DNA from: Bacteroidales bacterium
Lineage (GTDB): Bacteria; Bacteroidota; Bacteroidia; Bacteroidales; NBLH01
Length of the DNA: 15,889 nt
NCBI GenBank assembly: GCA_027083715.1
Contig: JALWNR010000387.1
Coordinates: 1-15,889, forward strand
Direction of reading: 5' to 3'
A program made the position numbers and the translations under genes. The number at the start of each line of letters is the position of its first letter. The first letter of the stretch is position 1. The notes under the pieces are model-generated. The model saw only the letters and a program-made list of their open reading frames with translations. It searched no databases and was not told the origin of the DNA. Below, in pieces: positions 122 to 14,778 of this stretch.

Positions 122-1117
122 ATGGTAGATTTAACAACAAGGTATATGGGATTAAGCCTGAAAAATCCCATAATAATAGCCAGCTCAGGTTTAACAGCTA
201 ATGTAGACAACATTAAAAAACTTGAAGCAAACGGAGCAGGTGCTGTTGTTCTGAAATCCATATTTGAGGAAGAAATCATGTTGGAATATGATCACATGAT
301 GAATCAAATGGATCAATTTGAAAGTGATTATGAGTATTTTGACTACTATGATTACAAAATCAAAGAAGAAAACGTCAGCAAATACCTGCAATTAATTAAA
401 GATGCAAAAGCAGCTGTTTCAATTCCTGTTATTGCCAGTATAAACTGCGTTTCAGCACATGAATGGACTTATTTTGCCAAAAAAATTGAAGAAGCAGGTG
501 CAGATGCCATTGAGTTGAACGCTTTTATTCTGCCTTCGGATGCTGAACGCTCAAGTGCAGAAAATGAAAAAGTATATTTTGACATTGTCGAAAAAATCAA
601 CAATGAAGTTTCTATTCCGGTAGCTTTAAAAATGAGTCATTATTTTTCTAATCTGGCACAAACCATTAAAAAGCTCTCAGAAACAAACTTAAAAGGCATT
701 GTACTCTTTAACCGTTTTTACAGTCCTGATTTTGATATTGAAGAAATGAAAATTACCTCATCTCATATTTTCAGTGCTCAAAGCGATCAGGTTATGCCTT
801 TACGTTGGATTTCAATTATGGCAGAAAAAGTTTCCTGTGATTTGGCAGCGACTACCGGAATACATGATGGCAAAGATGTTATTAAAATGTTATTAGCCGG
901 TGCAAAAGCAGTGCAAGTGGCTTCTACAATCTATAAAAATGGAGCTGAATACATCCAAACCATGCTTAAAGAACTTGAAAATTGGATGGACAGACATAAT
1001 TATCTGAACATAGACCAATTTAGAGCCAAAATGAGTCAGGCTAAAAATGAAAACGGAGCGCATTATGAACGTGTTCAATTTATGCGTTATTTCGGCGAAA
1101 AAGAATCTACATTATAA
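122..1117 (+). CDS. Dihydroorotate dehydrogenase-like FMN protein
   Basis: This 331-residue protein has the length and fold signature of class 1 dihydroorotate dehydrogenases (FMN TIM barrel). The N-terminal strand is LKNPIIIASSGLT (13-24), K45 lies in the FMN-side VVLKS strand, ELN is at 131-133, a second barrel lysine is K170, and the phosphate-binding end is ATTGIHDGKDVIKMLLAGA (243-261). The ELNxSCPN motif of genuine PyrD is not kept: ELN is followed by AFILPSD. This fits the 'dihydroorotate dehydrogenase-like' group seen in Bacteroidota rather than the pyrimidine enzyme itself. The substrate is therefore unknown; a flavin-dependent redox reaction is the safe statement. It follows a GltD/NfnB-like gene by 14 nt and ends before a strong terminator, which suggests a shared transcript and possibly shared electron transfer. 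The ATG at 122 is the only start that keeps the conserved N-terminus. Confidence 0.85.
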   Translation: MVDLTTRYMGLSLKNPIIIASSGLTANVDNIKKLEANGAGAVVLKSIFEEEIMLEYDHMMNQMDQFESDYEYFDYYDYKIKEENVSKYLQLIKDAKAAVSIPVIASINCVSAHEWTYFAKKIEEAGADAIELNAFILPSDAERSSAENEKVYFDIVEKINNEVSIPVALKMSHYFSNLAQTIKKLSETNLKGIVLFNRFYSPDFDIEEMKITSSHIFSAQSDQVMPLRWISIMAEKVSCDLAATTGIHDGKDVIKMLLAGAKAVQVASTIYKNGAEYIQTMLKELENWMDRHNYLNIDQFRAKMSQAKNENGAHYERVQFMRYFGEKESTL

Positions 1118-1354: not shown

Positions 1355-1861
1355 ATGGAAAATGTATCAAACATCAGTAAACTGATATACACCTGGATAA
1401 TTCTTTTTATCGTATGGCTGGCTTTTACATCTACGCTTGCCACGGAAGAAGTAGTTACAGGGATGTTTGTCAGTATGATTGTAGCTTTACTCTCGTTTCG
1501 TTTTTTTACGGGAACCGGATTAAGTGTATTTACACCCCGAAAAGTCTTGTATCTGATTCAATACTTTTTTGTGTTCATCGCAGCATTAATTAAAGCAAAC
1601 TTTCATGTGGCAAAAATTGTATTATCGCCAAAACTCCCAATTAATCCGGGAATTGTAGAATTTGAAACCAATTTAAAATCAGATTTTGCAAAAATGGTTT
1701 TAGCAAATAGTATTACACTAACACCGGGAACTTTCACTGTTGATATAGTAGAAAACCGGTATTATATCCATTGGTTGGAAGTTTCAGCAACCGATGAAGA
1801 AAGTGTATATAAAGAAATAGCAGAAAGTTTTGAAAAAATTTTATTAAAAATTTACGAATAA
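1355..1861 (+). CDS. mbxA: MrpE/MnhE-like subunit of the membrane module (MbxA-like)
   Basis: This 168-residue protein has about three N-terminal hydrophobic segments (roughly 10-30, 33-50 and 63-82) and a cytoplasmic C-terminal domain. The family signature LANSITLTPGT (116-126) of MrpE/MnhE is intact. MrpE-type subunits are structural parts of Mrp Na+/H+ antiporters and of the antiporter module of Mbh and Mbx complexes. As the first gene of a 13-gene operon with the same relative order as archaeal mbx clusters, it is best read as MbxA rather than as part of a free-standing Mrp antiporter. The stop codon is 6 nt before the next start. The symbol is assigned by homology and position. Confidence 0.88.
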   Translation: MENVSNISKLIYTWIILFIVWLAFTSTLATEEVVTGMFVSMIVALLSFRFFTGTGLSVFTPRKVLYLIQYFFVFIAALIKANFHVAKIVLSPKLPINPGIVEFETNLKSDFAKMVLANSITLTPGTFTVDIVENRYYIHWLEVSATDEESVYKEIAESFEKILLKIYE

Positions 1862-1867
1862 AAAGCT

Positions 1868-2125
1868 ATGAACGTATTTTTTATCATCATCATGGGAATA
1901 ATCATGCTGGCAGGCGTTTTTGCCGTCATCAGATTTATTAAAGGACCCACAACGGCAGACCGTGTAGTAGCACTAGATAATTTATCAACCATAGTGGTTG
2001 CTACACTGATATTTATGGGTTTTGTGTTTCAGCGATTTATCTATATTGATGTTTCGTTGATTTATGCGGTATTAGGATTTATCGGTGTGCTGACTATTGC
2101 ACGCTATTTAGAAGGAGGAATATAA
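1868..2125 (+). CDS. mbxB: MrpF/MnhF-like subunit (MbxB-like)
   Basis: An 85-residue, three-helix membrane protein of the usual MrpF length. GPTTADRVVALD (26-37) is the conserved loop and start of helix 2 of MrpF/PhaF proteins, and the third helix begins with D61 in IDVSLIYAVLGF. In antiporter modules this subunit packs with the MrpG- and MrpE-like subunits; conserved acidic residues in this set have been proposed to take part in cation movement. It lies between the MrpE- and MrpG-like genes with only a few nucleotides on either side. No anomalies were seen. Confidence 0.9.
   Translation: MNVFFIIIMGIIMLAGVFAVIRFIKGPTTADRVVALDNLSTIVVATLIFMGFVFQRFIYIDVSLIYAVLGFIGVLTIARYLEGGI
2113..2118 (+). 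promoter_or_regulatory. Strong Shine-Dalgarno before mbxC, inside the end of mbxB
   Basis: AGGAGG lies within the last codons of the MrpF-like gene and is spaced 8 nt from the ATG at 2127. A full Shine-Dalgarno is unusual in Bacteroidota, which mostly initiate without one. It supports ATG 2127 as the true start and suggests local translational control of this small subunit. Confidence 0.6.
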
Positions 2126-2126
2126 T

Positions 2127-2480
2127 ATGGAAACAGTATTGCTTTATCTCGGATACTTTTTTGTATCGCTCGGTGCCGTATTCTTGTTTCTGGGTGCTTT
2201 TGGGATATTTCGTATGCCCGATTTTTATACCCGTTTACAAGCAGGTACAAAATCCAGTACTCTTGGCGCAATGAGCCTGATATTGGGAGTTGGATTAATG
2301 CAACCCGAATGGTTTTTTAAAACATTGATTATCATTATTTTTATTGCAATATCCAACCCGATTAGTTCTCATGCACTGGCACGCGGAGCATACAAAACGC
2401 ATCAAAAACCCTTAACGGACACCATTGATGCTTATGAAGAAGTAGTGAAAGAAGACGAAACTAAAAACGAGGAGGAATAA
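2127..2480 (+). CDS. mbxC: MrpG/MnhG-like subunit (MbxC-like)
   Basis: A 117-residue protein with three hydrophobic helices followed by a short acidic cytoplasmic tail (about 98-117, rich in D and E). The MrpG signatures are FRMPDFYTRLQAGTKSSTLG (28-47) and the C-terminal ISNPISSHALARGAY (75-89), which correspond to the family's R-x-P-D-x-Y-x-R-x-H/Q-A-x-T-K and NP-hydrophobic-S-x-H motifs. It is a structural component of the Mrp-type antiporter module. The acidic EEE end is encoded by GAGGAGGAA and doubles as the ribosome-binding site for the next gene. Confidence 0.9.
   Translation: METVLLYLGYFFVSLGAVFLFLGAFGIFRMPDFYTRLQAGTKSSTLGAMSLILGVGLMQPEWFFKTLIIIIFIAISNPISSHALARGAYKTHQKPLTDTIDAYEEVVKEDETKNEEE
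2470..2475 (+). promoter_or_regulatory. Shine-Dalgarno for mbxD embedded in the C-terminal Glu codons of mbxC
   Basis: AGGAGG formed by the GAG-GAG-GAA codons of the MrpG-like C-terminus sits 7 nt before the ATG at 2483. It fixes that start and probably couples translation of the two genes. It is the second strong Shine-Dalgarno in the operon, in a lineage where such sites are uncommon. Confidence 0.6.
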
Positions 2481-2482
2481 TT

Positions 2483-2737
2483 ATGGATATTTTAACATTA
2501 CTGCTCCTGTTCTTTTCATTAATACTAATGATTGGAGCTGCTATTTACGCAATAATTACAAAAGATTTGATATTTGCAACAATCGGTACTTCGCTTATTA
2601 GTTTGGCACTTTCAGTGATTTTTTATTTACTGCATGCCCCGGATGTGGCATTAACCGAAGCTGCAATAGGAGTAGCTTTGAGTACTATTGTTTTTGTAAT
2701 TGCAGTTCGAAATACTAAAAGATACGAAGAAGACTAA
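2483..2737 (+). CDS. mbxD: MrpA C-terminal-domain / MbhD-like subunit (DUF4040, MbxD-like)
   Basis: An 84-residue protein with about three hydrophobic helices. HAPDVALTEAAIGVALST (51-68) is the hallmark of the DUF4040/MbhD family, with the intramembrane D54 and E59 of APDVAxTEA. In Mrp antiporters this piece is part of the long C-terminus of MrpA; in Mbh and Mbx complexes it is a separate small protein, as here. The separation itself indicates an Mbh/Mbx-type complex rather than a classical Mrp antiporter. It is followed 11 nt later by the MbhE-MrpB fusion. Confidence 0.88.
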   Translation: MDILTLLLLFFSLILMIGAAIYAIITKDLIFATIGTSLISLALSVIFYLLHAPDVALTEAAIGVALSTIVFVIAVRNTKRYEED

Positions 2738-2748
2738 TAATATAGATT

Positions 2749-3468
2749 ATGAAAAAATTAGTTATAATATCATTGCTGCTGGTTTTAGGATATAGCTTGA
2801 TGAATACTTTTTCAGATATTGAATTTGGGAAAAAAAGAGAGGGAATCAGCAGTTATTTTTTAGAACATTCGCCCGATGATTTACAAGTAGCAAATACAGT
2901 AACTGCTATAGTTGTAAGTTTTAGAGGCTTTGATACTTTGGGCGAAGTAACGGTTTTATTTTTGGCAGCTACCGCAATGGGTACCATTTTATTCCGTCGC
3001 CGTTCAAAACATACCGGTTTGAACCCACAGCGAAAATCGCCACAGGCAAGTCGCATTGTACAAGCAGCAGGTAAATTACTGTTTCCTGCGATTATGATTT
3101 TGGGTGCTTATGTATTTATTCACGGTCATTTAACTCCCGGAGGTGGTTTTCAAGGAGGAGCAATTATCGCCACAGGCTTTTTGCTTTTGCTGATTTCCTA
3201 CCGTCAGTTCAAAGTAGAACATAAGTATGTTACATGGATAGAGTCCTTAGCCGGTTTAAGTTTTGTAACAATTGGTTTATTGGGTATGATATTAGGTCCT
3301 CATAATTCTTTTTTGGAAAATTTCCTGAATGTGGGGAGCTTAAACGACTTACTCAGCGGAGGGGTAATTGCTCTGGTTTATATAGCCGTAGGCTTTAAAG
3401 TGGGTGCCGAACTTACCGGTATTCTCGATACATTAATAAATATTCGTGAAACAGGAGATATTGATTAA
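2749..3468 (+). CDS. mbxF: MbhE-MrpB fusion subunit (MbxE/F-like)
   Basis: This 239-residue protein joins two modules. Residues 1-85 resemble MbhE / the extreme C-terminus of MrpA, with NTVTAIVVSFRGFDTLGE (49-66) and two helices. Residues 103-239 are an MrpB/MnhB domain with the signature HGHLTPGGGFQGG (125-137) and four helices. A basic linker (RRRSKHTGLNPQRKSPQASR, 83-102) connects them. In several Mbh clusters these are two genes, MbhE and MbhF; here they are one continuous frame without any sign of frameshift. The protein belongs to the cation-translocating membrane arm. The symbol follows the archaeal mbx naming loosely. Confidence 0.85.
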   Translation: MKKLVIISLLLVLGYSLMNTFSDIEFGKKREGISSYFLEHSPDDLQVANTVTAIVVSFRGFDTLGEVTVLFLAATAMGTILFRRRSKHTGLNPQRKSPQASRIVQAAGKLLFPAIMILGAYVFIHGHLTPGGGFQGGAIIATGFLLLLISYRQFKVEHKYVTWIESLAGLSFVTIGLLGMILGPHNSFLENFLNVGSLNDLLSGGVIALVYIAVGFKVGAELTGILDTLINIRETGDID

Positions 3469-3471
3469 AAA

Positions 3472-3843
3472 ATGATGACAATGAATCAAATATTAACATA
3501 TTCTGTTTACGGCAGTGCCATTTTAGTAATGTTAATCGGTATTTATGCGGTTTTAACCAAAAAAAACCTGATTAAGATAGTAATTGGCTTGTCGATAATG
3601 GATTCAGGATTTAATTTACTTTTGGTAGCCCTGGGCTATATAAAAGGAGGAACAGCACCTATATTTTCGCCTGCAGTTGCAGGGAAAGATGTGCTCATGG
3701 TTGACCCTGTACCACAAGCACTGGTACTTACGGCTATTGTTATCGGATTTGGAGTTACAGCAGTAGCTTTGTCTCTGGTAATTCGCTTATACAGAAAACA
3801 CAATACGATTAAAATTGACGAAATAAAAACATTGAAATGGTAG
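3472..3843 (+). CDS. mbxG: MrpC/NuoK-like subunit (MbxG-like)
   Basis: A 123-residue protein with three hydrophobic helices, of the MrpC/MnhC/NuoK family. DPVPQALVLTAIVIGFGVTA (78-97) is the strongest family motif; the central helix carries D44 in GLSIMDSGFNLLLVALG. MrpC is homologous to complex I NuoK and sits next to the MrpD-like pump in the membrane arm. The first codons read ATG ATG ACA ATG, so the start could be 3472, 3475 or 3481 with no change to the fold. Its last codons overlap the next gene by 7 nt, a sign of translational coupling. Confidence 0.9.
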   Translation: MMTMNQILTYSVYGSAILVMLIGIYAVLTKKNLIKIVIGLSIMDSGFNLLLVALGYIKGGTAPIFSPAVAGKDVLMVDPVPQALVLTAIVIGFGVTAVALSLVIRLYRKHNTIKIDEIKTLKW

Positions 3844-5339
3844 CAAATCCTATTTTATACATAGCATTACCGCTGTTTACGGCTTTTCTAGTTCCGCTTT
3901 TGGCAAAATTATGGAAGCCTTTGGTACGGATTGTTCCGGGTTTGGTATTGGCATATCTGGCAATTATGTCTGTTGTGCTCATGCAACAAGTTAGTCCCGA
4001 AAAACCGATTATTGCCATGATTGCCGGATGGAAAGCCCCTTGGGGAATTAATTTGGTGTTCACTTCATTCAGCGGATTTATCGCAAGTTTGATTTCAATT
4101 CTTGCATTTTTTATCTGGTTATACAGTTTCGGATTTAAAAAAGTTGAGTTTGACGATGCACAAAAGTATTTCATACTTTTTATGTTGCTTACGGCAGGAT
4201 CAATAGGTGTGGTACTTACGGGCGATATTTTCAATATGTTCGTATTTATTGAAATCACATCACTTTCGGCATATGCTTTAACCGCATTTTACAAAGGGCG
4301 CGATGGTGCAGAAGCCGCTTTTAAATTTTTATTGATTGGCTCGTTTTCGTCCATAATGTTGCTTTTGGGTATTGCCATTTTATATACCTACACGGGAACA
4401 TTAAACATGGCGCACCTTGCCTTGCTGATGCCACAAGTGCCGATGCATGCAAAAATAACCTCGTTTTTACTCTTTTTTGTAGCTTTGGGTATTGAGGCAG
4501 AAATGTTCCCGCTTAATGGCTGGGCACCGGATGCCTACTCACAAGCACCGGGACCTATTGCAGCATCTTTTGCGGGAATTTTGGCAAAAGCAGGTATTTA
4601 TGCTTTAATCAGAGTAAGTTATACCATTTTTGATTTAGGCGATCACGGCGGTTTTGAATTATTACTGGTAATGGGCTTAATCACGATGGTTGTCTCGGAG
4701 TTGGTGGCTATGCGTCAGGAAAATCTGCGCCGGATGCTTGCTTATTCAAGTATGGGGCAAATGGGATTGATTATGATAGCTTTTGGACTGGGTACTAAGG
4801 AAGGTATTTATGCAGGACTGTTTATTATGTTTAATCACGCAGTGATTAAATCTTTGCTTTTCCTTGCATCGGCATACCTTGTGTATTACACATCGCGTAA
4901 AAAAATCAGTGATTTAGACGGCTTTGGTAAGCTATTGCCCCTCACCTCTTTACTTTTTGGTTTGGGTGCTTTTGCAATTGTCGGTCTACCGCCTTTTTCA
5001 GGATTTTGGTCTAAGTTATCTCTTTTGATTGCCACTGCCAACAGTCATATGGAATTTGTTTTGGCAACGGTTTTGGCAGTGAGTGTAATTGAAATTATTT
5101 ATTATTTCCGTGTATTGGGACGTTTGTATTTCCGCAAAGCACACAAAGAAATAAAAGTACGAAAACCAACATGGAATTCGGTAGTTACCATGATTGTTTT
5201 AGCATTAGTAATTATTGCCGTAGGTGTTCATCCTGATTTTATTACCGGATTATTGCACAATGCGGCTACAGACCTTGCCGACAAGGCAGATTATATACAA
5301 AAGATAATTCCTGATTTATTCAGTCAAACTCTTAATTAG
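3837..5339 (+). CDS. mbxH: MrpD/NuoN-like antiporter subunit (MbxH-like)
   Basis: This 500-residue protein is a 14-helix proton-conducting antiporter subunit of the MrpD/NuoL-M-N family. Conserved positions visible are E139 in FNMFVFIEI (helix 5), WAPDAYSQAPGP (229-240), K251 in ILAKAGIY (helix 8), RQENLRRMLAYSS (293-305), K338 in NHAVIKSLLFL and E419 in helix 12. The usual lysine of helix 7 (G-I/F-x-K-A-x-x-FPL) is a glutamate here: GIEAEMFPLNGWAPDAY (218-234). Its gene overlaps the MrpC-like gene by 7 nt, and the second antiporter subunit follows 6 nt after its stop. It is one of two probable pumping subunits of the complex. Whether Na+ or H+ is moved cannot be read from the sequence. Confidence 0.9.
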   Translation: MVANPILYIALPLFTAFLVPLLAKLWKPLVRIVPGLVLAYLAIMSVVLMQQVSPEKPIIAMIAGWKAPWGINLVFTSFSGFIASLISILAFFIWLYSFGFKKVEFDDAQKYFILFMLLTAGSIGVVLTGDIFNMFVFIEITSLSAYALTAFYKGRDGAEAAFKFLLIGSFSSIMLLLGIAILYTYTGTLNMAHLALLMPQVPMHAKITSFLLFFVALGIEAEMFPLNGWAPDAYSQAPGPIAASFAGILAKAGIYALIRVSYTIFDLGDHGGFELLLVMGLITMVVSELVAMRQENLRRMLAYSSMGQMGLIMIAFGLGTKEGIYAGLFIMFNHAVIKSLLFLASAYLVYYTSRKKISDLDGFGKLLPLTSLLFGLGAFAIVGLPPFSGFWSKLSLLIATANSHMEFVLATVLAVSVIEIIYYFRVLGRLYFRKAHKEIKVRKPTWNSVVTMIVLALVIIAVGVHPDFITGLLHNAATDLADKADYIQKIIPDLFSQTLN

Positions 5340-5345
5340 TAAAAT

Positions 5346-7190
5346 ATGAACTCTTTAATAATATTACTATTTATACTGGGAGGAGGTGCTTTATTAAGCT
5401 ATTTTGCATTCTTGTCAAAACATGCTTTCGGACAAGCTGTAGTTTGGCTGGTTGCAATTGCTTCGCCCGTTTATTTCTTTACACAGGTAGCTGTTGGCGA
5501 AAGTTTTTCATTTTCGCTTGGTGGTTTTGAACTGGCACTAGGCTTTAACCATTACAGTTGGGTGTTTGCTCTGTTAATCATGGTGCTTTCGCCACTGTCA
5601 TTAATCTATTCCACCGGATATATGAAAAGCCGATTACGTTTAGGAACTTTCTATTTTAGTTTCATTTTCAGTATATTCGGAATGATGGGTATTTTAATGA
5701 GCCGCGATTTGGTTTCTTTATTCATTTTTTGGGAAATTATGACTTGGGCATCTTACTTATTGGTAATTTACCGTGGTAAAGATGTTGAACACACAGGTAT
5801 CAAATACATGATTTTTAGTGCAGTTGGTGCTTATTCTATGTTTATGGCAATTGTTATTCTGAACAGAGAAATGCATTCGTTTGATATTGCTACCGTAATT
5901 CAAAATTTCGGAAACATGAATGCAGCAGACCAATGGCTGACCGGAATATTGCTTTTAATCGGTTTTGCGGTTAAAAGTGCAGTTATGCCTTTACATGTAT
6001 GGGCTCCCGGAGCTTATACGAATACACCTACTTCGTTTACCGCTGTTTTTTCCGGCGGACTTTCAAAAATGGGTGTTTACGGTATTGGTTTGGTATTGCT
6101 GAATTTATACAGCCATTCAGATTTTTCACAAGTGGGTATTTATCTTGCATGGTTGGGTGCTATAACAGCAGTAATGGCTACTTTTCGTGCTGTTTTTCAG
6201 AATGATGCAAAAAAATTACTGGCTTATTCATCGGTTGCGCAATTGGGATATATTGTTGCCGGTATCGGTTTAGGGACAGAACTGAGTGTTTTTGCCGGAA
6301 TTTATCTGGCTATATTGCACGGTGCATTCAAAGGCACTTTATTTATGGCTGTTGGGGCTGTAGAACGCCAAGCAGGCACTACGGATATGACCAAAATATC
6401 CGGTTTAATTAAAAATATGCCCTGGACATTTTTTGCTGCACTGGTAGCAATTATCGCTTTGGCAGGCATTCCGCCCGTTGGGGGATTTGTCGGGAAATGG
6501 ATGCTTTACGAAGCTGCCATTAACAGCGAACACATGTTTTTGGTTATTCTGATTTTTATTTCAAGTACTGCGGCATTTCTTTATTCGTTTCGTTTCTTGT
6601 TTGGCTTGTTTTTGGGACAACAGGAAGAAGAAACTGCTCATATAAAAGAAGCTCCTGCCGTAATGGTTGTTCCGATGATTTTATTGTCTTTGTTTTTAGT
6701 ACTGATGGGTACTTTCCCCGGAATTATTTTTAAACCTATTGCAGCAGGAATGGCAGAACTTGGTTTTCAGGGAGTGCCGTGGCATATGTCTGTATTGTAC
6801 AATATGTGGGGCGACAGTGTAAATCTGACTTATGTTAGTATTACATTTGGTACTGTATTCTTACTTGGCTTGGTTTACATTACCTTAATTGCACGAAAAG
6901 GAACAAAACATAAATTATCAACAAAAGATATTCATACCGCAGGTGAAATTCCAAAACCGGAAGACAATTTAAATTATTCTTTGGATTTTTATAAGCCTTT
7001 TGAGCGTGTTTTATCACCCTTATTAAAACACAAGCTGGATGTTTATTACAATGAGTTTGGTAAAGGTTTGGAAGCACTGTTTAACTTTATGCGAAGAATA
7101 TATACGGGAAACGGACAAACTTATGCTTTATATGTTGTTGTCTTTCTGGTAGCATTAATATTATTAAGCGGAAGAATTTTCGGAATATAA
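5346..7190 (+). CDS. mbxH': Second antiporter subunit, NuoL/MrpA-like with C-terminal extension (MbxH'-like)
   Basis: At 614 residues this is longer than the preceding paralogue. Key residues are canonical: E130 in FIFWEIMTW (helix 5), K210 in GFAVKSAVMPLHVWAPGAY (helix 7), K241 in the helix 8 region, NDAKKLLAYSS (286-296) and K329 in HGAFKGTLF. After the 14-helix core (to about 460) come a further helix (about 497-516), a charged segment (517-590) containing PKPEDNLNYSLDFYKPFERV, and a last transmembrane helix (592-608). This matches the lateral amphipathic helix plus anchor seen in NuoL-type subunits. Two antiporter subunits per complex distinguish Mbx/MBS from Mbh, which has one. The gene ends before an 80-nt gap with a hairpin that separates the membrane-arm genes from the NuoH/B/C/D genes. 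Confidence 0.9.
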   Translation: MNSLIILLFILGGGALLSYFAFLSKHAFGQAVVWLVAIASPVYFFTQVAVGESFSFSLGGFELALGFNHYSWVFALLIMVLSPLSLIYSTGYMKSRLRLGTFYFSFIFSIFGMMGILMSRDLVSLFIFWEIMTWASYLLVIYRGKDVEHTGIKYMIFSAVGAYSMFMAIVILNREMHSFDIATVIQNFGNMNAADQWLTGILLLIGFAVKSAVMPLHVWAPGAYTNTPTSFTAVFSGGLSKMGVYGIGLVLLNLYSHSDFSQVGIYLAWLGAITAVMATFRAVFQNDAKKLLAYSSVAQLGYIVAGIGLGTELSVFAGIYLAILHGAFKGTLFMAVGAVERQAGTTDMTKISGLIKNMPWTFFAALVAIIALAGIPPVGGFVGKWMLYEAAINSEHMFLVILIFISSTAAFLYSFRFLFGLFLGQQEEETAHIKEAPAVMVVPMILLSLFLVLMGTFPGIIFKPIAAGMAELGFQGVPWHMSVLYNMWGDSVNLTYVSITFGTVFLLGLVYITLIARKGTKHKLSTKDIHTAGEIPKPEDNLNYSLDFYKPFERVLSPLLKHKLDVYYNEFGKGLEALFNFMRRIYTGNGQTYALYVVVFLVALILLSGRIFGI

Positions 7191-7196
7191 GATATT

Positions 7197-7229
7197 AGAT
7201 TTAGCAAATTTTTAAGTTTTGCCAAATCT
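7197..7229 (+). other. Intercistronic hairpin between the antiporter genes and the NuoH-like gene
   Basis: AGATTT-A-GCAAA (7197-7208) pairs with TTTGC-C-AAATCT (7218-7229), leaving one A/C mismatch and a 9-nt loop. No U-tract follows directly (the next bases are CAAAAAATAA), so full termination is unlikely. Partial attenuation, an RNA-processing site or mRNA stabilisation are possible and would allow different amounts of the membrane and peripheral arms. Confidence 0.45.
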
Positions 7230-7270
7230 CAAAAAATAATTAGAAGTAAAAAATTATAATTAACATAAAA

Positions 7271-8197
7271 ATGGATGATATCTTAATAAAAATACTCGGT
7301 GCCATAGCAACAGTTATACTTGCTTTTACAGTAGGAATGACTTACGGCGGTTTATCGCGTAAAGTGATTGCACGTATTCAAAATCGTATTGGACCACCGT
7401 GGTATCAGAATTTTATAGACAATGCAAAACTATTGTTTAAAGTTTCAAACATTAATCATGGTTTTATGCAGCATGTAGCTCCTTTGTGGCTGATAGGAAT
7501 GTCTGTTACCACCGTTTTATTCATACCGGTTTTAAATACAGGAGGTGATAGTTGGTACAATTCATGGTTTCCAAACCTGAATTTTCACGGAGACTTAATT
7601 TTTCTTTTGTACCTGATGGTAATTGGCTCCTTAGGAATGGCTCTTGGAGCAGGACAAACGGGAAACCCGAACTCTGCGATTGGTGTTTCGCGTGGATTAA
7701 CACAAATGGTAGGTTTTGAAGTACCTTGGGTAATGGCTTTAGTAGCACTAATGATACAATATAAAACTACTTCCATAACCGGATTAATGGCAGCAGCCGA
7801 GCAACAAGGCACGTGGCTGGCATTTAGCTCACCTTTTGCAACATTGGCGGCTCTTTTGGCAATGCCCGGAATGTTCAGGTACTCACCTTTTGACATTGTA
7901 GGAGCACCTGCCGAGCTGGCATCAGGACCTGTATCCGAGTTTGGTGGAAAATATCTTTCTACCATGATGACCTCAGGTTCTATATTTGCCTTTGTTAAAC
8001 TTACTCTTTACGTAGATATATTTTTCGGAGGTGCAAATAATTTGGTTGAATTAGTTATCAAAACCTTCATTTTATACATGTATCCGGTTTTGTGGGGAGC
8101 GGTTAGTCCGCGTTTCAGAACAGAACAAGCCGTTCGTTTTTTCTGGGGCTGGCCTGTTTTATTCGGAATTATTGCATTAATTCAAGCATCACTTTAA
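7271..8197 (+). CDS. mbxM: NuoH-like membrane anchor subunit (MbxM-like)
   Basis: A 308-residue protein with about eight hydrophobic helices, homologous to NuoH/ND1 and MbhM. Signatures are ARIQNRIGPPWYQNFIDNAK (34-53), the GFEVPW segment (148-153), and the cytoplasmic loop SPFDIVGAPAELASGPVSEFGG (205-226), equivalent to the PFD...AE.EL..G...EYSG loop of NuoH. This subunit joins the peripheral redox arm to the pumping arm, and its loops near the NuoB- and NuoD-like subunits couple electron transfer to ion movement. The start at 7271 gives the expected N-terminal helix. The next gene starts 12 nt downstream. Confidence 0.92.
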   Translation: MDDILIKILGAIATVILAFTVGMTYGGLSRKVIARIQNRIGPPWYQNFIDNAKLLFKVSNINHGFMQHVAPLWLIGMSVTTVLFIPVLNTGGDSWYNSWFPNLNFHGDLIFLLYLMVIGSLGMALGAGQTGNPNSAIGVSRGLTQMVGFEVPWVMALVALMIQYKTTSITGLMAAAEQQGTWLAFSSPFATLAALLAMPGMFRYSPFDIVGAPAELASGPVSEFGGKYLSTMMTSGSIFAFVKLTLYVDIFFGGANNLVELVIKTFILYMYPVLWGAVSPRFRTEQAVRFFWGWPVLFGIIALIQASL

Positions 8198-8209
8198 ATT
8201 TGAAAGAGA

Positions 8210-8761
8210 ATGATGAACATTAACGATAAACATTCGCAAAAGATTGTTGATATTATAAAAGAATATGCAAGAAAACAATCATTGTTTATTCTTGCTTACG
8301 GAACGGGCTGTGGGGCTATTGAAATACCTCCGACAATGACATCAAGATATGATGCGGAACGCTACGGAATCCGTGGAGCAGCTACACCACGACAAGCTGA
8401 TGTACTGCTGATTACCGGATATCTGGCAACCAAAACATTAAAAAGGGTTATTCGCGCATACGAACAAATGCAATCGCCAAAATATGTAATTGGTTTTGGT
8501 TCCTGCACTATTAACGGCGGCATGTATTGGGATTCTTACAATACCATTAATGTTTTGGATAAATACTTACCTGTTGATGTGTACATTAACGGTTGTATGC
8601 CGCGTCCGGAAGCTGTACTTGCAGGATTTGACAAGCTGAAAGAATTAATTCAGGCTGGGAAAGCAGAAGGTTGGAAACATTATCAGGAAAATCTTGACTG
8701 GTATCGTGAAAATCAGAAAAAAGTAATTGTAAATTGGCAAATGCCTGATTATAACTGGTAA
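8210..8761 (+). CDS. mbxJ: NuoB-like [4Fe-4S] subunit with only three cysteines (MbxJ-like)
   Basis: This 183-residue protein is of the NuoB / hydrogenase small subunit family. It shows GTGCGAIEIPPTMTSRYDAE (31-50), the helix ending in QADVLLITG (62-70), GFGSCTINGGMYW (95-107) and INGCMPRPEAVL (127-138). The proximal cluster normally has four cysteine ligands (a tandem or CxxC pair plus two single cysteines). Here only C34, C99 and C129 exist; G31 or G35 occupies the place of the fourth. This is the pattern I recall for archaeal MbxJ, where the cluster is site-differentiated and was proposed to be the catalytic site of sulfane-sulfur reduction. The protein sits between the NuoD-like subunit and the NuoH-like anchor. 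Two ATGs (8210 and 8213) are possible starts. Confidence 0.9.
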   Translation: MMNINDKHSQKIVDIIKEYARKQSLFILAYGTGCGAIEIPPTMTSRYDAERYGIRGAATPRQADVLLITGYLATKTLKRVIRAYEQMQSPKYVIGFGSCTINGGMYWDSYNTINVLDKYLPVDVYINGCMPRPEAVLAGFDKLKELIQAGKAEGWKHYQENLDWYRENQKKVIVNWQMPDYNW

Positions 8762-8771
8762 AATTAGAGCT

Positions 8772-9356
8772 ATGGATAATATAAATTTAGAGAAAGAACA
8801 ACAACTGGCAGACATCCTGAGTTCAGACTTTACACGTTTGGATGCAAAAGTGGTGCGTGAGCGCAGAGTAGAAGCCGTGTTGAAAAGCAATGACATAATA
8901 CCTTCGGTATTACTTTTTGCCAAAGATAAATTGGGATACATTCATTTCTCGCACATGAGTTGTGTGGACTGGCTGGAAGAAGGTGAGTTTGAAGTAATTT
9001 ATATTCTTTGGAATCCCGAAGAAAAAATCAATTTACTGATAAAAGTCAGAACGGACAGAGATAACGCAACATTGCCAAACATTGACTATATCTGGCGACA
9101 AGCCAATACTTACGAAAGAGAATTAAGAGAAATGTACGGTATCGAATTTCCCGGACTGATAGCTGCCAAAGAGTTTATTTTGGAAGACTGGCAAGGTATG
9201 CCGCCAATGCGCCGTGATTTTAAAACCAAAGAATATGTTGATGATCATTTCTTCCACCGTCCGGGCAGAGAAGATGCACAAGATGTTAGAGAGACCATTG
9301 CAAATCGCAGTGGCGAAGAAATTCCTGAATTTGCTAAGAAATTTTCAAGAAAATGA
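8772..9356 (+). CDS. mbxK: NuoC-like subunit (MbxK-like)
   Basis: A 194-residue soluble protein of the NuoC/30-kDa complex I family. The C-terminal half carries ANTYERELREMYGIEFPG (111-128) and LEDWQGMPPMRRDF (137-150), the family's W-x-x-A-x-W/Y-E-R-E-x-x-D/E-M-x-G-I and L-x-x-x-P-x-R-x-D/K motifs; the N-terminal half is variable. It is a structural partner of the NuoD-like subunit and binds no cofactor. Its TGA overlaps the ATG of the NuoD-like gene in an ATGA arrangement, indicating translational coupling of the two. Confidence 0.9.
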   Translation: MDNINLEKEQQLADILSSDFTRLDAKVVRERRVEAVLKSNDIIPSVLLFAKDKLGYIHFSHMSCVDWLEEGEFEVIYILWNPEEKINLLIKVRTDRDNATLPNIDYIWRQANTYERELREMYGIEFPGLIAAKEFILEDWQGMPPMRRDFKTKEYVDDHFFHRPGREDAQDVRETIANRSGEEIPEFAKKFSRK

Positions 9357-10459
9357 GAGAAGAAACAACAACCATATATTTAGGACCGCAACATCCCGGA
9401 ATTACCGGAAATATGATGATAAAACTGCAGGTAAAAGGCGATACGGTAATGAAAGCCGAAACGCATATCGGATACTTGCACCGCGGATTTGAAAAATTGA
9501 TGGAACGCCGTAACTGGCTGCAAAGTTTCACCATTGTGTGTCGTATTTGTGTGCCGGAACCCGACCCGAACGAAGAAAACTATTCGCGTGCCGTTGAAGA
9601 AATCGAAGGCAGAGAAGTGCCCGAAAGAGCTAAATACATCCGTGTAATGGTACTTGAATTGGCACGCATTGCCTCATATTTATTGTGGTATGGCGGGCAA
9701 AACGGTTCTGCAGGACTTTATACTATGGGACAGTGGTCTGTGGGCGACCGTAACTACATCCTTGATTTGTTTGAGGAACTTACCGGAGGTCGTGTGTATC
9801 ACATGTATATTTGGCCAGGAGGTGTACGCAGAGATTTACCCGAAGGTTTTGCCGATAAAGTATTGAAAACGATGGATTATCTGGAAAAACGTTTGGATGA
9901 ATACGATAAACTGATGTTTGAAAACAGTATTTTCCAAAAACGTGCACAAGGTGTAGGTATTATTGACCCTGCCAAAGCTATTGAATGGGGCGTTGTAGGA
10001 CCACCCTTGCGCGGTTGCGGCATTCAGTCGGATGTGCGTAAAGACGACCCGTATGAAGTATATGACAAATTGGATTTTGAAGTGCCGAAAATTGAAGGAC
10101 AAAGTGATGTTTGGGCAAGGGCTTTAGTACGCCGCTTTGAAATCAGAGAATCCATAAAAATTATTCGTCAGGTAATCGAAAAAATGCCTACCGGAGAGGT
10201 GTACAATAAAGTTCCGAATCCGATGAAATGGATTGTGCCTAAGGGGGATGCGTATGTAAAAACCGAGTCTGCCCGGGGTGAGTTTGGCTATTATATGGTT
10301 AGCGATGGCTCGGACAAACCACGCAGGGTTCATGTAAAAGGACCGGCTTATGTTCATGGTATTTCCTTACTGGAAAACTTGTTGGTTGGTGAAAATATTG
10401 CCGATGTTTCATTTATTATGAACAGCTTGGGGACTTGCCCGCCGGAAATGGAAAGGTAA
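9353..10459 (+). CDS. mbxL: NuoD / [NiFe]-hydrogenase large-subunit-like protein without a [NiFe] site (MbxL-like)
   Basis: This 368-residue protein has the NuoD/MbhL fold. GPQHPG (11-16) is the substrate-cavity hairpin, HIGYLHRGFEKLMERR (38-53) the following helix, and RAVEEIEGREVPERAKYIRV (79-98) is very close to MbhL. In [NiFe] hydrogenases RxCGxC and DPCxxC hold the metals. Here, aligned without a gap to RAVEE, the first motif reads RIC-VPE (C66, E69) and the last reads GTC-PPE-MER (C362, E365), so each pair has lost its second cysteine. C63 makes an accidental CRIC that fits only with a three-residue gap. The same loss is known in the Mbx/MBS group, so hydrogen production is not expected. 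The gene overlaps the NuoC-like gene by 4 nt. Confidence 0.9.
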   Translation: MREETTTIYLGPQHPGITGNMMIKLQVKGDTVMKAETHIGYLHRGFEKLMERRNWLQSFTIVCRICVPEPDPNEENYSRAVEEIEGREVPERAKYIRVMVLELARIASYLLWYGGQNGSAGLYTMGQWSVGDRNYILDLFEELTGGRVYHMYIWPGGVRRDLPEGFADKVLKTMDYLEKRLDEYDKLMFENSIFQKRAQGVGIIDPAKAIEWGVVGPPLRGCGIQSDVRKDDPYEVYDKLDFEVPKIEGQSDVWARALVRRFEIRESIKIIRQVIEKMPTGEVYNKVPNPMKWIVPKGDAYVKTESARGEFGYYMVSDGSDKPRRVHVKGPAYVHGISLLENLLVGENIADVSFIMNSLGTCPPEMER

Positions 10460-10572
10460 TATAGTGTTCAACGGTTAAATTGTTCAATGATTGATTTTTT
10501 TTGACACGAAAAACTAATTTAAATAATTTAACTTTTCATATTAAAGTATAAAAAATCTAAAAATATAAAAGC
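10460..10572 (+). other. 113-nt gap inside the operon, before the fused Fe-S flavoprotein gene
   Basis: This is the longest gap in the operon. It is AT-rich and contains two GTTCAA copies (about 10465 and 10482), a T-tract and a TTGACA (10501-10506). No stable hairpin with a U-tract and no correctly spaced TAnnTTTG element was found, so neither a terminator nor a promoter is supported. Read-through from the upstream genes is the simplest view. Confidence 0.35.
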
Positions 10573-12354
10573 ATGGGCTTTTTTGATTTAAAAGGATTAT
10601 TATCACCGCTGACCGGATTGCAACAGTTCGGTAGAAAGCCGCATACATTAACTTATACTAAAGAGGCAGCCGATCGTTATCGCGGATTGCACTACAATAA
10701 ATTGGATCAATGTATCGGTTGCGGAAACTGTTCTACAATTTGTATGAACGAAGCCATTGATATGATACATATCGAAGGCATTGAAGGAAGTAAAGGAGAT
10801 TCAGGTTTACGTCCACGGGTGGATAACGGAAGGTGCTGTTGGTGTGCACTTTGCGTTGAGGTTTGTCCGACAGGTTCTTTAAACCTGACCAAAGATTTTA
10901 TTTATGTTACAGACGATGCAGATAGTTTTCTTTGGACACCGGGAAAAAGCAATCCTGATGCCGAAGAAAAAATATCGTTCCATAGTGATGTGGATACATC
11001 ATTAAGCATGTATCAGCGTGTTCCGATGCGCGAAATGGATGGTATGGAGCGTATCGAATCATTTGCCGAAGTTGTGCTCGGATATAATGATGAAGAAGCA
11101 CGTGCCGAGGCGCAACGTTGTATCAGTTGTTCGTTGTGTACCGAGGTTTGTCCTGATCATATGCACATACCCGAATACATAAATGCCATTGCACGCGGCG
11201 AAAACGAAGAAGCAATCCGTATTATTTACGACAATAACCCGTTGCCGGAGATGTGTGGTAAGGTTTGTACCCGCCGTTGCGAGGATGTTTGTGCTATTGC
11301 CGTACGTGGAGAGCCTGTAGCTATCCGTTGGTTGAAACGCTATGCTACGGAGCAGGCAAAAACTGCAGATATGATTAAAGAAATCGTAAATCCGAAAATT
11401 GAAGAACCCAACGGTAAAAAAGTAGGGATTATCGGTGCAGGACCTTCGGGTTTAACTGCCGGATATTATCTTGCTTTACGCGGATTTGACGTAACCATTT
11501 ACGAAGCTAAATCGCATGGTGGCGGTATGACTTTCTACGGTATCCCGAAATATCGCTTACCTTACGAAAGCATCAACAAACAAGTAGAATACTTGCAAAA
11601 AATTGGTGTAAAAATCAATTTCAATACCCGTGTAGGAAAAGATATTCAGTTTGAGGAAATTTATAATCAATACGATGCGGTATTTATCGGTATCGGATTT
11701 GAAAAACCTTGGACATTGGGCATGAAAGGCGAAGATCTTAATGGTTCAATGCAAGCGGTTAAATTCCTTGAAATTATTAACGAAGGCGGAACAGTGGATA
11801 TAGGTAAACATGTAGTTGTTGTTGGAGGTGGAAATGTGGCTATTGATGCAGCCCGTGTAGCCAAACGATTAGGTGCTGACGTAGATATTGTTTATCGTCG
11901 TCGTGTTCAGGATATGCCTGCTGACTGGGAAGAAATTGAAGGAGCTGAGGATGAAGGTGTAAACATCATCCCGCAAGGTATTCCTATTGAAGTGCTTGGC
12001 GATAAAAACGGTAAAGTAAAAGCATTCCGCTATGCCAAGGCAGAAATGGTACCGGATCCAAAAGGTGGTCGCCCGCGTCCGCAACAGATTGAAGGAAGCG
12101 AAACAGATATTGAGTGCAGTACTGTTATTGCAGCCATCGGTCAGGAAGCGGATTACTCATTCTTCCCCGAAGAAATTAAGAGTAAAATTAATTTTGAGCG
12201 CGGCAGATTTGTGGTTAATCACGAGACCAAACAAACTGATGATCCGAAAATTTTTGCAGGTGGCGATGCTGTTAACCGCACGGCTGATGCAATTAGTGCT
12301 ATTGCCGATGGTTTTAAAGCCGTAAAAGGGATTGAGAAATATTTGTTAGGATAA
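10573..12354 (+). CDS. Fusion of NuoI/MbxN-like ferredoxin domain and GltD/NfnL-like FAD-NAD(P) oxidoreductase
   Basis: This 593-residue protein is the electron-input or -output subunit. Residues 1-125 are a NuoI/MbxN-like domain with two [4Fe-4S] motifs: C47-C50-C53-C57 and C88-C91-C94-C98-P. Residues about 150-593 are GltD/NfnL-like. They include two more cysteine sets, C183-C186-C189-C193-P and C228-C232-C236-C240; an FAD Rossmann motif GIIGAGPSGLTAGYYLALRG (285-304) ending in E311; and an NAD(P) motif VVVVGGGNVAIDAARVAKRL (414-433) with YRRR (441-444), whose arginines suggest NADPH. The C-terminal flavin cap is IFAGGDAVNRTADAISAIADG (560-580). Compared with GltD as I know it (Cx2Cx4Cx3CP and Cx3Cx5Cx3C), both flavoprotein cysteine sets are shorter by two residues. 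As last gene of the Mbx operon it should link the membrane complex to ferredoxin and NAD(P)H. The direction is not decided by sequence. Confidence 0.9.
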   Translation: MGFFDLKGLLSPLTGLQQFGRKPHTLTYTKEAADRYRGLHYNKLDQCIGCGNCSTICMNEAIDMIHIEGIEGSKGDSGLRPRVDNGRCCWCALCVEVCPTGSLNLTKDFIYVTDDADSFLWTPGKSNPDAEEKISFHSDVDTSLSMYQRVPMREMDGMERIESFAEVVLGYNDEEARAEAQRCISCSLCTEVCPDHMHIPEYINAIARGENEEAIRIIYDNNPLPEMCGKVCTRRCEDVCAIAVRGEPVAIRWLKRYATEQAKTADMIKEIVNPKIEEPNGKKVGIIGAGPSGLTAGYYLALRGFDVTIYEAKSHGGGMTFYGIPKYRLPYESINKQVEYLQKIGVKINFNTRVGKDIQFEEIYNQYDAVFIGIGFEKPWTLGMKGEDLNGSMQAVKFLEIINEGGTVDIGKHVVVVGGGNVAIDAARVAKRLGADVDIVYRRRVQDMPADWEEIEGAEDEGVNIIPQGIPIEVLGDKNGKVKAFRYAKAEMVPDPKGGRPRPQQIEGSETDIECSTVIAAIGQEADYSFFPEEIKSKINFERGRFVVNHETKQTDDPKIFAGGDAVNRTADAISAIADGFKAVKGIEKYLLG

Positions 12355-12445: not shown

Positions 12446-12485
12446 ATATTTTTACATTTGCAAGCTCATTAAAATGTAAAAATAT
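12446..12485. repeat. 14-bp perfect inverted repeat covering promoter and start codon
   Basis: The arms ATATTTTTACATTT (12446-12459) and AAATGTAAAAATAT (12472-12485) are perfectly complementary across a 12-nt spacer. The left arm contains the TAnnTTTG element and the right arm runs into the ATG of the outer-membrane-like gene. If transcription starts about 7 nt after the -7 element, most of the left arm would not be transcribed, so a protein-binding operator is more likely than an RNA hairpin. Confidence 0.6.
12453..12460 (+). promoter_or_regulatory. Bacteroidota-type -7 promoter element TAnnTTTG
   Basis: TACATTTG is a perfect match to the TAnnTTTG element recognised by the housekeeping sigma factor of Bacteroidota. 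It lies 23 nt before the ATG at 12484 and just after the terminator of the Mbx operon, a sensible place for a new promoter. A matching -33 TTG element was not found at the usual distance, so the promoter may be weak or depend on an activator. The element lies inside the left arm of the inverted repeat at 12446-12485. Confidence 0.5.
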
Positions 12486-13050
12486 GAATAGGTTAATCAT
12501 TATTATTTTTCTTTTTTTAAACGGTTTTTTCTTATCAGCACAAGATACATTAATGGAAAAATCACCCAAACAATATAGTTTTACCGTAGGTTATCAAAGA
12601 AATTTGACATCAGATTTTACAAATAATGCAAACAATGGCTACAATATAGAAGCTGAAGTTGCATGGAAAGTTTCCGGTTTCCACAAAAAAAGCGCTGTTT
12701 ATTTTGGTGTCCCTTTGGGTTATAACTACTCATTACCTGATACCGAAAATGATTTTTATAGTACAACACTCTTTTATGGATGGATTGTTCGGCATGAAAT
12801 AGGAAGGAATAAAAAATACACTCCTTTTTTGGCTTATGGTCTTTTGTTAAATCAACTACGTATTGAAAATACGGAAGGTAGCGTATTTGGACATCAAACC
12901 AGATTTGAGTTTGGAATAAACCGACATTTTAGAAATAAAAATTATTTATTTGCTAAAATTGAATACAGTTATGCACGTTTCCCCAGTCTGGGAAATAGCT
13001 CATCAAACAAAATGCAGTTTTTGGCATTTAAAATTGGGGTGAGAATATAA
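12484..13050 (+). CDS. Secreted small beta-barrel-like protein, probably outer membrane; function unknown
   Basis: The protein has 188 residues. An N-terminal signal peptide MNRLIIIIFLFLNGFFLSAQ (1-20) has the SAQ-type cleavage end common in Bacteroidota. The mature part consists of alternating hydrophobic and polar stretches with many aromatic residues, for example YSFTVGYQRNL, SAVYFGVPLGYNYSL, STTLFYGWIVRHEIG, KYTPFLAYGLLL, HQTRFEFGINRHF, YLFAKIEYSYARF and a final FLAFKIGVRI. This pattern of about eight amphipathic strands ending at the C-terminus suggests an eight-stranded outer-membrane barrel. I do not recognise a named family. It is monocistronic: a terminator lies before it and a hairpin after it, and the next genes run convergently. 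The inverted repeat at its start suggests repressor or activator control. It has no visible link with the Mbx complex. Confidence 0.7.
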   Translation: MNRLIIIIFLFLNGFFLSAQDTLMEKSPKQYSFTVGYQRNLTSDFTNNANNGYNIEAEVAWKVSGFHKKSAVYFGVPLGYNYSLPDTENDFYSTTLFYGWIVRHEIGRNKKYTPFLAYGLLLNQLRIENTEGSVFGHQTRFEFGINRHFRNKNYLFAKIEYSYARFPSLGNSSSNKMQFLAFKIGVRI

Positions 13051-13102: not shown

Positions 13103-14161
13103 CTAATCCTCTATAATTTGTACGTTTCCGTACCTACTGCTTATCTCTACTTTTGCTTTCGTTTCTTTATTTGCACCAACAGCTCCCCAAACCCGCGATT
13201 CTGTCCCATCAATTATTTTATTAAGTTTATATCCTTTAGGATATTTAACAGATCCATATGCAGCCTGAGCTTCTAATTGATAACTTATGTTTGCAGGCAA
13301 ATGAAGGTTTGATTTTCCGTAGCGTTGATCAATTTTTATAAACTCAAAATCAGGATCAACTTTATACAAATCCAAATTACCGTATTTTACCGTTAAATCT
13401 AACTTATTGTATAATTTTGATATTTCAAAGCTTGAATATCCTCCTGTACAAATAAAGTTGCGCACTGCTCCCACTTTAAAAGGATGATCATATTTTGACT
13501 CTGCCACAATAGACTTTACTTTTTTTATTTTAACAGCAGAATATTTGCTGGCAATCATTAATGCCTGTGCCGTTTCTATGGCAATTTTTGAATAAGCAAC
13601 TTCCATTTTTAACCAGTTTGCCTGATCAATATCACAATAAGTATCAGAATATGCTACATAAATATAATTAAGGGGTTTTTTGTTTCCGCGCCCTAATTTG
13701 TTAATGGTAAAATTTCCGTATTTTACCGAAATATTAGCATGTCCGTTTACTTCGTTTAAAAACAAATCTCCATATTTATTAGATAAATCCACATTTATAT
13801 ATGCCGGTATTTTTACAAAATAATCAATTTTAAACGATGTATTTCTTATAGATTCATTCAAACTTGTGATAGCAGAAACGATATTCCCACTCTCACTAAA
13901 ATCTATATCAATTTTACGAAATGTACTCTCAGCTTTCGATTCGCTTGAAGTTTTAACGGTAATAGTAACGGTAATATCAATACTATTTTTATCCCAGTTA
14001 ATAATTTTCATATCACCGTATTTATTCACCAATTGCATTGTTGTATTTTTATCGGCTTTATATTGTTTATGAAACATTTTTGTAAAATCTTCGGCATATC
14101 CCCAAATGCCAATGAACAAAAAAGTAAATAACAATAATAATTTTAATTTCCCTCTTTCCAT
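13103..14161 (-). CDS. Secreted KYG-repeat beta-helix-like protein (DUF4097-like), sigma/anti-sigma operon member
   Basis: This 352-residue protein has a signal peptide (1-23, ending GYA-ED). The mature region is a ladder of short beta repeats with a recurring tyrosine followed by G or S: Y48, Y130, Y148, Y171, Y190, Y207, Y224, Y242, Y260, Y281, Y302 and Y344. In the central part these are spaced 17-23 residues, with sequences such as NKYGDL, VKYGNF, SKYSAV, VKYGNL, QRYGKS and SRYGNV. This fits a right-handed parallel beta-helix of the kind found in DUF4097 and GIN-domain 'adhesin-like' proteins of Bacteroidota. Such proteins often lie downstream of ECF sigma and anti-sigma genes, as here (87 nt after the anti-sigma gene). 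A role in the envelope or in sensing envelope state is inferred; no enzymatic motif is visible. Confidence 0.75.
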   Translation of the reverse strand: MERGKLKLLLLFTFLFIGIWGYAEDFTKMFHKQYKADKNTTMQLVNKYGDMKIINWDKNSIDITVTITVKTSSESKAESTFRKIDIDFSESGNIVSAITSLNESIRNTSFKIDYFVKIPAYINVDLSNKYGDLFLNEVNGHANISVKYGNFTINKLGRGNKKPLNYIYVAYSDTYCDIDQANWLKMEVAYSKIAIETAQALMIASKYSAVKIKKVKSIVAESKYDHPFKVGAVRNFICTGGYSSFEISKLYNKLDLTVKYGNLDLYKVDPDFEFIKIDQRYGKSNLHLPANISYQLEAQAAYGSVKYPKGYKLNKIIDGTESRVWGAVGANKETKAKVEISSRYGNVQIIED

Positions 14162-14204
14162 TTTTATATATTTTAAAAGTTACCTGATATTAAATTTTAT
14201 GTTT

Positions 14205-14216
14205 AAAAGATCTTTT
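14205..14216. repeat. 12-bp palindrome in the gap between anti-sigma and KYG-repeat genes
   Basis: AAAAGATCTTTT is a perfect 12-bp palindrome in the 87-nt gap upstream of the KYG-repeat gene. It might be a protein-binding site or a chance AT-rich palindrome. No promoter element was recognised beside it. Confidence 0.3.
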
Positions 14217-14248
14217 CGCCTACCGACAGACAATTTAAAGTTTGCTTT

Positions 14249-14767: not shown

Positions 14768-14778
14768 TATTAAAAACT

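Follow-up and report, generated by a model that had tools for sequence, protein, structure and literature searches.

The 15,889-nucleotide contig JALWNR010000387.1 of a Bacteroidales bacterium (assembly GCA_027083715.1), which we analyzed from end to end and call the window, carries 13 open reading frames (ORFs) on the forward strand between positions 1355 and 12354. An earlier note made from the sequence alone had described these ORFs as a complete gene cluster for a respiratory complex of the MBX/MBS type (MBS, membrane-bound sulfane reductase). All 13 ORFs are present and match the Pfam families that it had named, in the same order (Table 1). Both predicted antiporter subunits, MbxH and MbxH', match Proton_antipo_M, and the E-values of the two are 1.7e-60 and 2e-58. 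The cluster has the make-up by which we recognized this type of complex, namely an Mrp-type arm and two antiporter-like subunits together with the subunits M, J, K, L, and N. The window is one whole contig (C387 of genome G000 in our numbering) of a 3.94 Mb genome in 884 contigs that is 92.4% complete with 3.5% contamination. This assembly is fragmented and resembles a metagenome-assembled genome (MAG), and single contigs in it may be foreign.

Table 1. Genes of the mbx cluster and the neighboring flavoprotein gene in the window.
Product	Position	Strand	Evidence
MbxA (MrpE-like)	1355..1861	+	PF01899 (MNHE) 8.5e-43
MbxB (MrpF-like)	1868..2125	+	PF04066 (MrpF) 2.7e-16
MbxC (MrpG-like)	2127..2480	+	PF03334 (MrpG) 3.8e-26
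MbxD (MbhD-like)	2483..2737	+	PF13244 (MbhD) 4.2e-19
MbxE (MbhE + MrpB, one ORF)	2749..3468	+	PF20501 (MbhE) 5.6e-11, PF04039 (MnhB) 4.2e-23
MbxG (MrpC/NuoK-like)	3472..3843	+	PF00420 (Oxidored_q2) 1.9e-28
MbxH (antiporter-like, MrpD type)	3837..5339	+	PF00361 (Proton_antipo_M); MBS H match
MbxH' (second antiporter-like subunit)	5346..7190	+	PF00361 (Proton_antipo_M); MBS 6u8y_X match
MbxM (NuoH-like membrane anchor)	7271..8197	+	PF00146 (NADHdh) 1.5e-49
MbxJ (NuoB-like)	8210..8761	+	Oxidored_q6 1.5e-23; three Cys C34, C99, C129
MbxK (NuoC-like)	8772..9356	+	PF00329 (Complex1_30kDa) 1.7e-25
MbxL (NuoD-like), NiFe site lost	9353..10459	+	Complex1_49kDa 5.1e-79; C63/C66/C362
MbxN, fused NuoI-like + NfnL/GltD-like	10573..12354	+	Fer4-type + Fer4_20 + Pyr_redox_2
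Dihydroorotate-dehydrogenase-like flavoprotein (PRK07565)	122..1117	+	NF005741 441 bits

Comparison with solved structures placed the complex nearest to MBS for each of the four subunits L, J, H, and H'. The best match of L was the MBS subunit 6u8y_L with 372 bits, against 275 for complex I and 148 for the Mbh hydrogenase (MBH). J matched 6u8y_J with 229 bits (NDH 129, MBH 107), MbxH matched 6u8y_H with 381 bits (MBH 212), and MbxH' matched 6u8y_X over nearly its full length with 294 bits (MBH 184). A search of the GTDB species genomes, seeded with two aligned L proteins, yielded 121 relatives. The loci of the best 80 (L036-L115) were examined, and the other 41 do not enter the counts below. 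In a tree of L from the window, these 80 loci, and a second genome of the host phylum, G009 (which has exactly the same L as L101), all 82 rows from the FCB group joined MbsL with an SH-aLRT of 99, apart from MbhL/HycE and four complex I sequences; this was a quick tree with a single MbsL and long reference branches, for which the tool gave a long-branch warning. The earlier note had named placement inside the Mbh hydrogenases or complex I as the outcome that would speak against it. The tree of L shows neither, and for J the match scores and cluster ligands, rather than a tree, point to MBS. The AlphaFold model of L has a mean pLDDT of 87.7, with residues 363-368 below 50, and the 50 fold matches listed for it were all entries for complex I/NDH or respirasomes with MBS absent among them, a comparison that cannot separate MBS from complex I. 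Judged by its sequence, this is a complex of the MBX/MBS type and neither a hydrogenase nor complex I.

The residues of J and L that are expected at the catalytic chamber bear this out. In J, C34 and C99 are cysteine in all 76 rows with letters at these positions and C129 in all 77 rows (the window and 76 loci), which predicts a proximal [4Fe-4S] cluster held by three cysteines. Exactly three cysteines occur in 67 of the 77 proteins, five in eight, four in one, and one in the single row that is gapped at C34 and C99. The tandem CC of NuoB in complex I is absent, with C34 followed by G35 in 76/76 readable rows, and the position of the non-ligand C25 of Pyrococcus furiosus MbsJ is glycine in 76/76 (G31 in the window). 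From either NiFe pair, L retains a single cysteine, C66 and C362 (P. furiosus C85 and C385), in 82/82 rows; the second cysteine of both CxxC pairs is missing in every row, with E69 and E365 in its place. The positions of the quinone-site histidine and tyrosine of complex I, which we take to be H38 and Y87 of Nqo4, are T18 and V67 in all 82 rows, and the host's own complex I NuoD has the histidine and tyrosine. A further cysteine, C63, is found in 81/82 rows and forms a CxxC motif (C63-R-[F/I/M]-C66); this position is not cysteine in P. furiosus MbsL, HycE, Escherichia coli NuoCD, or the host NuoD. Apart from C63, the signature residues of J and L named above are conserved wherever they could be read in the 80 loci.

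The terminal subunit, N, is a fusion. Residues ~1-125 match the two-[4Fe-4S] part of NuoI/ferredoxin-type subunits and residues ~147-593 are NfnL/GltD-like, binding FAD and NAD(P) by prediction, with NfnL (the Nfn large subunit) as the best solved match. The FAD and NAD(P) folds and the Fe-S ligands are all present, so the earlier note was right that this subunit has its own FAD-NAD(P) module. Among 70 homologous proteins, each longer than 500 amino acids, the Fe-S ligand positions are conserved, except that a single row has gaps at the first four of them, and Y441, R442, R443, and R444 of the NAD(P) fold occur in 70/70. By analogy with NfnL, this Y-R-R-R stretch favors NADPH. One NCBIfam model, NF010590 (PRK13984, putative oxidoreductase), spans both parts (residues 7-591 of the protein on 9-606 of the model), and N scored 626.5 bits and its G009 homologue 661.9 bits, N lying under the curated cut-off of 946. 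Thermotoga maritima was alone among 14 control genomes in scoring above the cut-off, with a match that presumably lies in its mbx operon. The domain fusion, in which the earlier note had seen part of the novelty, is therefore not new: the joining of NuoI and NfnL/GltD domains is known outside the host lineage.

The residues proposed for pumping are also largely retained. Based on our reading of pairwise alignments with the solved MBS subunits, the equivalents of MbsH E138, E219, K250, and K393 (MbxH E139, E220, K251, and K393) are kept in 55-57 of 57 rows and those of MbsH' E128, K217, K248, and K399 in 62-63 of 63. E59 of MbxD is among the charged residues that are at least 97% conserved in 50 rows.

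The gene order is nearly constant among the relatives. All 13 genes were found in 45/80 loci and in the same order in 44 of these; L057 differs in C and D as called. In 34 of the remaining 35 loci the only genes lacking were those expected past the end of the stretch, where at most 700 bases were left. In L108 the genes A to EF were not found despite 944 bases upstream of G, which is unexplained. Fused N follows L in 75/80 loci (74 by script plus L083, probably missed because its called ORF starts further inside L), and the other five stretches end within 408 bases of L. The gap between L and N is 719 bases in L073 and 1071 in L094 and below 120 in most relatives. Genomes titled as members of the FCB group, most of them from uncultured bacteria, account for 79 of the 80 loci, and L067 is titled just 'Bacterium BMS3Abin04'. 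By title they include MAGs of Bacteroidales, Bacteroidetes, Flavobacteria-type bacteria, Saprospiraceae, Melioribacteraceae/Ignavibacteriales, 'Chlorobiota', Calditrichota, and Neomarinimicrobiota. The closest L among the best 80 of the 121 relatives (97% identity) comes from a MAG titled Bacteroidales, in keeping with the Bacteroidota-like genome that the earlier note had recognized. The same distribution takes away the novelty of lineage that it had seen, since the complex is not peculiar to the host genome. Within the phylum the fused protein looks sparse: in a sample of 296 genomes, a full-length copy was present only in the host and G009 among the matches listed. Matches in plasmid records were all below 60% identity, the ten listed at 37-39%. 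The titles of 8/80 loci carry the isolate names SulCav, HyVt, or Guay, which we take to be indicators of habitat, and 20/80 have scaf2bin naming, which a study of vent deposits uses for one MAG. Our literature searches (open-licence papers, mostly as listings) recognized no report of MBX/MBS in Bacteroidota. The complex is a well-defined new member of MBX/MBS, a type known from thermophilic sulfur reducers, and these searches brought up no report of it from the host lineage.

The host has several other respiratory systems. Separate contigs carry complex I with a quinone-type NuoD (C435), an Rnf operon (C523), an Nqr operon (C60), and nfnSL-like genes away from mbx (C806). In the Rnf and Nqr operons, rnfB, C, D, and A and nqrA, B, and F scored above the NCBIfam cut-offs, and the remaining genes were named by order and reading. 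The earlier note had proposed looking for both operons in the same genome and had suggested that the complex might replace or complement them. With both gene sets present, the complex replaces neither, and it may complement them. There are also genes for cytochrome bd and five COX1-type oxidases (four strong matches and one weak match in two pieces). Matches of the [FeFe]-hydrogenase type number four and are spread over three contigs. The oxidase genes do not fit the anaerobe that had been assumed.

We propose that this MBX/MBS complex couples NAD(P)H-driven cleavage of S-S bonds at the open-iron cluster of J to the translocation of H+ and Na+, a reading of the sequence to which we give a probability of about 0.5. 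NAD(P)H, probably NADPH, would pass a hydride to the FAD of N, and electrons would then move through the two clusters of the GltD-like part and the two of the NuoI-like part to the open-iron cluster of J. There, polysulfide, an organic trisulfide, or another disulfide would be cleaved, and turnover in the J/L chamber would drive H+ and Na+ across the membrane. The NuoI-like part may also accept electrons from ferredoxin. In the cell, the complex would operate alongside Rnf, Nqr, and the quinone-type complex I and drain NAD(P)H whenever sulfane sulfur is available. Each catalytic step is something we infer, and the proposal uses all of the conserved parts. In P. furiosus MBS, the three-cysteine cluster of MbsJ is the catalytic one according to the accessible part of PMC7684303, and in T. 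maritima mbxA was up 4.36-fold with S0 according to that of PMC9431562.

Several observations weigh against this proposal. By sequence, NADPH, NADH, or ferredoxin may each be the donor. The accessible part of PMC9431562 describes a membrane fraction from T. maritima that formed no H2S, whether NAD(P)H or ferredoxin supplied the electrons. By our own estimate, the span from NAD(P)H to sulfur is smaller than that from ferredoxin to sulfur and may not suffice to drive two pumping subunits. The position of MbsH H330 is histidine in 0/57 rows and that of MbsH' H336 in 3/63; a histidine four residues further on is invariant. Apart from the dihydroorotate-dehydrogenase-like gene described below, every flanking gene family recurs in at most 5/80 loci, and these neighborhoods hold no set of sulfur genes; sulfur-cycle genes were not searched genome-wide.

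Other functions were considered on the same evidence. The earlier note had called the complex an ion-pumping ferredoxin/NAD(P)H oxidoreductase. Ferredoxin would then dock at the NuoI-like part, NAD(P)+ would be reduced at the GltD-like part, and ions would be pumped. The two parts do lie on one polypeptide; this is the function stated for P. furiosus Mbx, with reference to earlier work, in the accessible part of PMC6349859, and NfnS/NfnL-like genes follow mbx in L111 and L114. Plain transfer nevertheless fits poorly with a J/L site of the S-S-reducing MBS type. Transfer confined to ferredoxin and the NAD(P) site would leave J/L out of the electron path, and the route from ferredoxin to FAD could thus skip the chamber that is the coupling site of MBS, MBH, and complex I. 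The conserved open-iron cluster and the L cysteines would be left without a role, and Rnf and Nfn-type genes are available in the genome for that task. We therefore regard this function as unlikely, if still a serious contender. We find it harder to believe in a two-donor, confurcating enzyme in which NAD(P)H at an NfnL-type flavin and ferredoxin jointly supply the electrons for S-S reduction or for a similar reaction at low potential. The FAD of NfnL is the bifurcating flavin of Nfn, and the GltD-like part is closest, among solved structures, to Nfn large subunits. However, NfnS with its [2Fe-2S] cluster, the second path of Nfn, is not in the operon of the window, where a single linear chain of clusters is apparent.

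The remaining two functions are contradicted by ligand residues. An NAD(P)H:quinone oxidoreductase analogous to complex I is very improbable and we rejected it, given the loss of the quinone-site histidine and tyrosine in every row, the missing tandem CC, the position of L in the tree, and a separate complex I with a quinone-type NuoD in the genome. An energy-converting hydrogenase of the Mbh or Ech type would suit the gene content and the Mrp-type arm, which are like those of Mbh, but it is refuted by the glutamates that replace half of the NiFe ligands and has next to no credibility.

The conserved cysteines of L allow a more specific form of the NAD(P)H-driven S-S cleavage that we propose. 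The accessible part of PMC7684303 reports that MbsL C85 and C385 mutants had activity comparable to the wild type. Since these cysteines are dispensable there, their conservation here needs another explanation or else they are spectators. One rather doubtful idea, drawn from the sequence, is that the open-iron [4Fe-4S] cluster of J acts together with the adjacent CxxC of L (C63/C66, with C362 as a third thiol) in an NAD(P)H:disulfide (polysulfide) reductase that conserves energy and is old in the FCB group. Such a pairing would resemble ferredoxin:thioredoxin reductase, where a cluster acts with a redox-active disulfide, and would be unlike the chemistry put forward for Pyrococcus MBS, which can do without its L cysteines.

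Upstream of mbx in the window is a gene for a dihydroorotate-dehydrogenase-like (DHOD-like) flavoprotein. A DHOD-like gene is near the operon in 35/80 loci, upstream in 20 and downstream in 15 (one protein per locus was tested with the hidden Markov model), and in 14 of the 22 loci whose sequence covers the whole operon and 1.3 kb beyond either end. The occurrence of these two arrangements in different lineages suggests a working link with mbx. In many relatives the gap to mbx is about 20 bases. In the window the two are separated by a terminator-like hairpin (1129-1149) that has a T run, although such hits are not above chance there (11 versus a shuffle mean of 12.5). Cotranscription with mbx is thus unlikely in the window, and the DHOD-like gene is probably its own transcription unit. 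The window copy falls outside the clade of the 19 other upstream copies in a tree that left out partial copies under 251 amino acids, relatives L038 and L040 have no DHOD-like gene beside the operon within their stretches, and a second copy is found elsewhere in the host genome. Among 32 DHOD-like proteins, the positions of C130 and N193 of Lactococcus lactis DHODA differ in at least 31 and in 32, respectively, N67 is not conserved, and K164 and N127 are kept in 32/32; we take these five to be functional residues of DHODA. A PyrD function is unlikely because the usual dihydroorotate site is not conserved. NfnS-/NfnL-like genes stand between mbx and the DHOD-like gene in L111 (12275-15618) and L114 (9805-13107), and a GltD-like fragment directly precedes the DHOD-like gene in L107. 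Between them, the DHOD-like protein and N would cover the domain types that make up dihydropyrimidine dehydrogenase, which is only a lead. Downstream of mbx are a weak match to an outer-membrane beta-barrel (12484-13050, forward strand) and, on the reverse strand at 13103-15330, consecutive genes for an ECF sigma factor, a 172-amino-acid product with no Pfam match that is anti-sigma-like by position alone, and a DUF4097 protein.

If the proposed reaction is true, then Bacteroidota, Ignavibacteria-type bacteria, Calditrichota, and their relatives, several of them from vents and sulfidic habitats, possess an ion pump tied to sulfur. Its fuel would be NAD(P)H and not ferredoxin alone, more organisms would be counted as respirers of sulfane sulfur, and the transition from MBS to complex I could be studied in a second, distant family. 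Should it be no more than an ordinary MBX, the complex still has a clear signature in the three-cysteine J, the C63/C66/C362 of L, and the fused N. The papers that we consulted discuss such a pump for thermophiles, and Schut and colleagues have reportedly worked on MBX in Thermotogae.

Compared with known systems, the complex shares homologues of J, K, L, M, and H and the fold of L with complex I, and differs from it in lacking the quinone-site residues and the CC of J, in its Mrp-type arm, and in having no NuoEFG genes in the window. The second part of N is like the NfnL/GltD flavoproteins (PDB 5jca, 4ylf) in its FAD, NAD(P) site, and Fe-S ligands, whereas here it is fused to a NuoI-like part and has no NfnS partner in the operon. 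The MBX of T. maritima is similar in having 13 subunits and in being homologous to MBS, as stated in the accessible part of PMC9431562; by model score, and not by residues, its match lies above the PRK13984 cut-off and N of the window below it. The accessible part of PMC10356935 describes a 13-gene MBS cluster in the thermophilic bacterium strain 3DAC and MbsL-type genes in most lineages of the CCTB clade. Those thermophiles are set apart by description, since that part calls their MBS archaea-derived, gives them a separate Nfn2, and mentions no fused N. The closest likeness by structure is to P. furiosus MBS (PDB 6u8y), with which the complex shares its subunit set, two antiporter-like subunits, and, from the accessible part of PMC7684303, the three-cysteine proximal cluster in J and the two leftover NiFe cysteines in L. 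It differs from this MBS in the glycine in place of C25 of J, in not conserving MbsH H330 and MbsH' H336, in the NfnL/GltD-like NAD(P) module fused to N, and in the extra conserved C63 of L.

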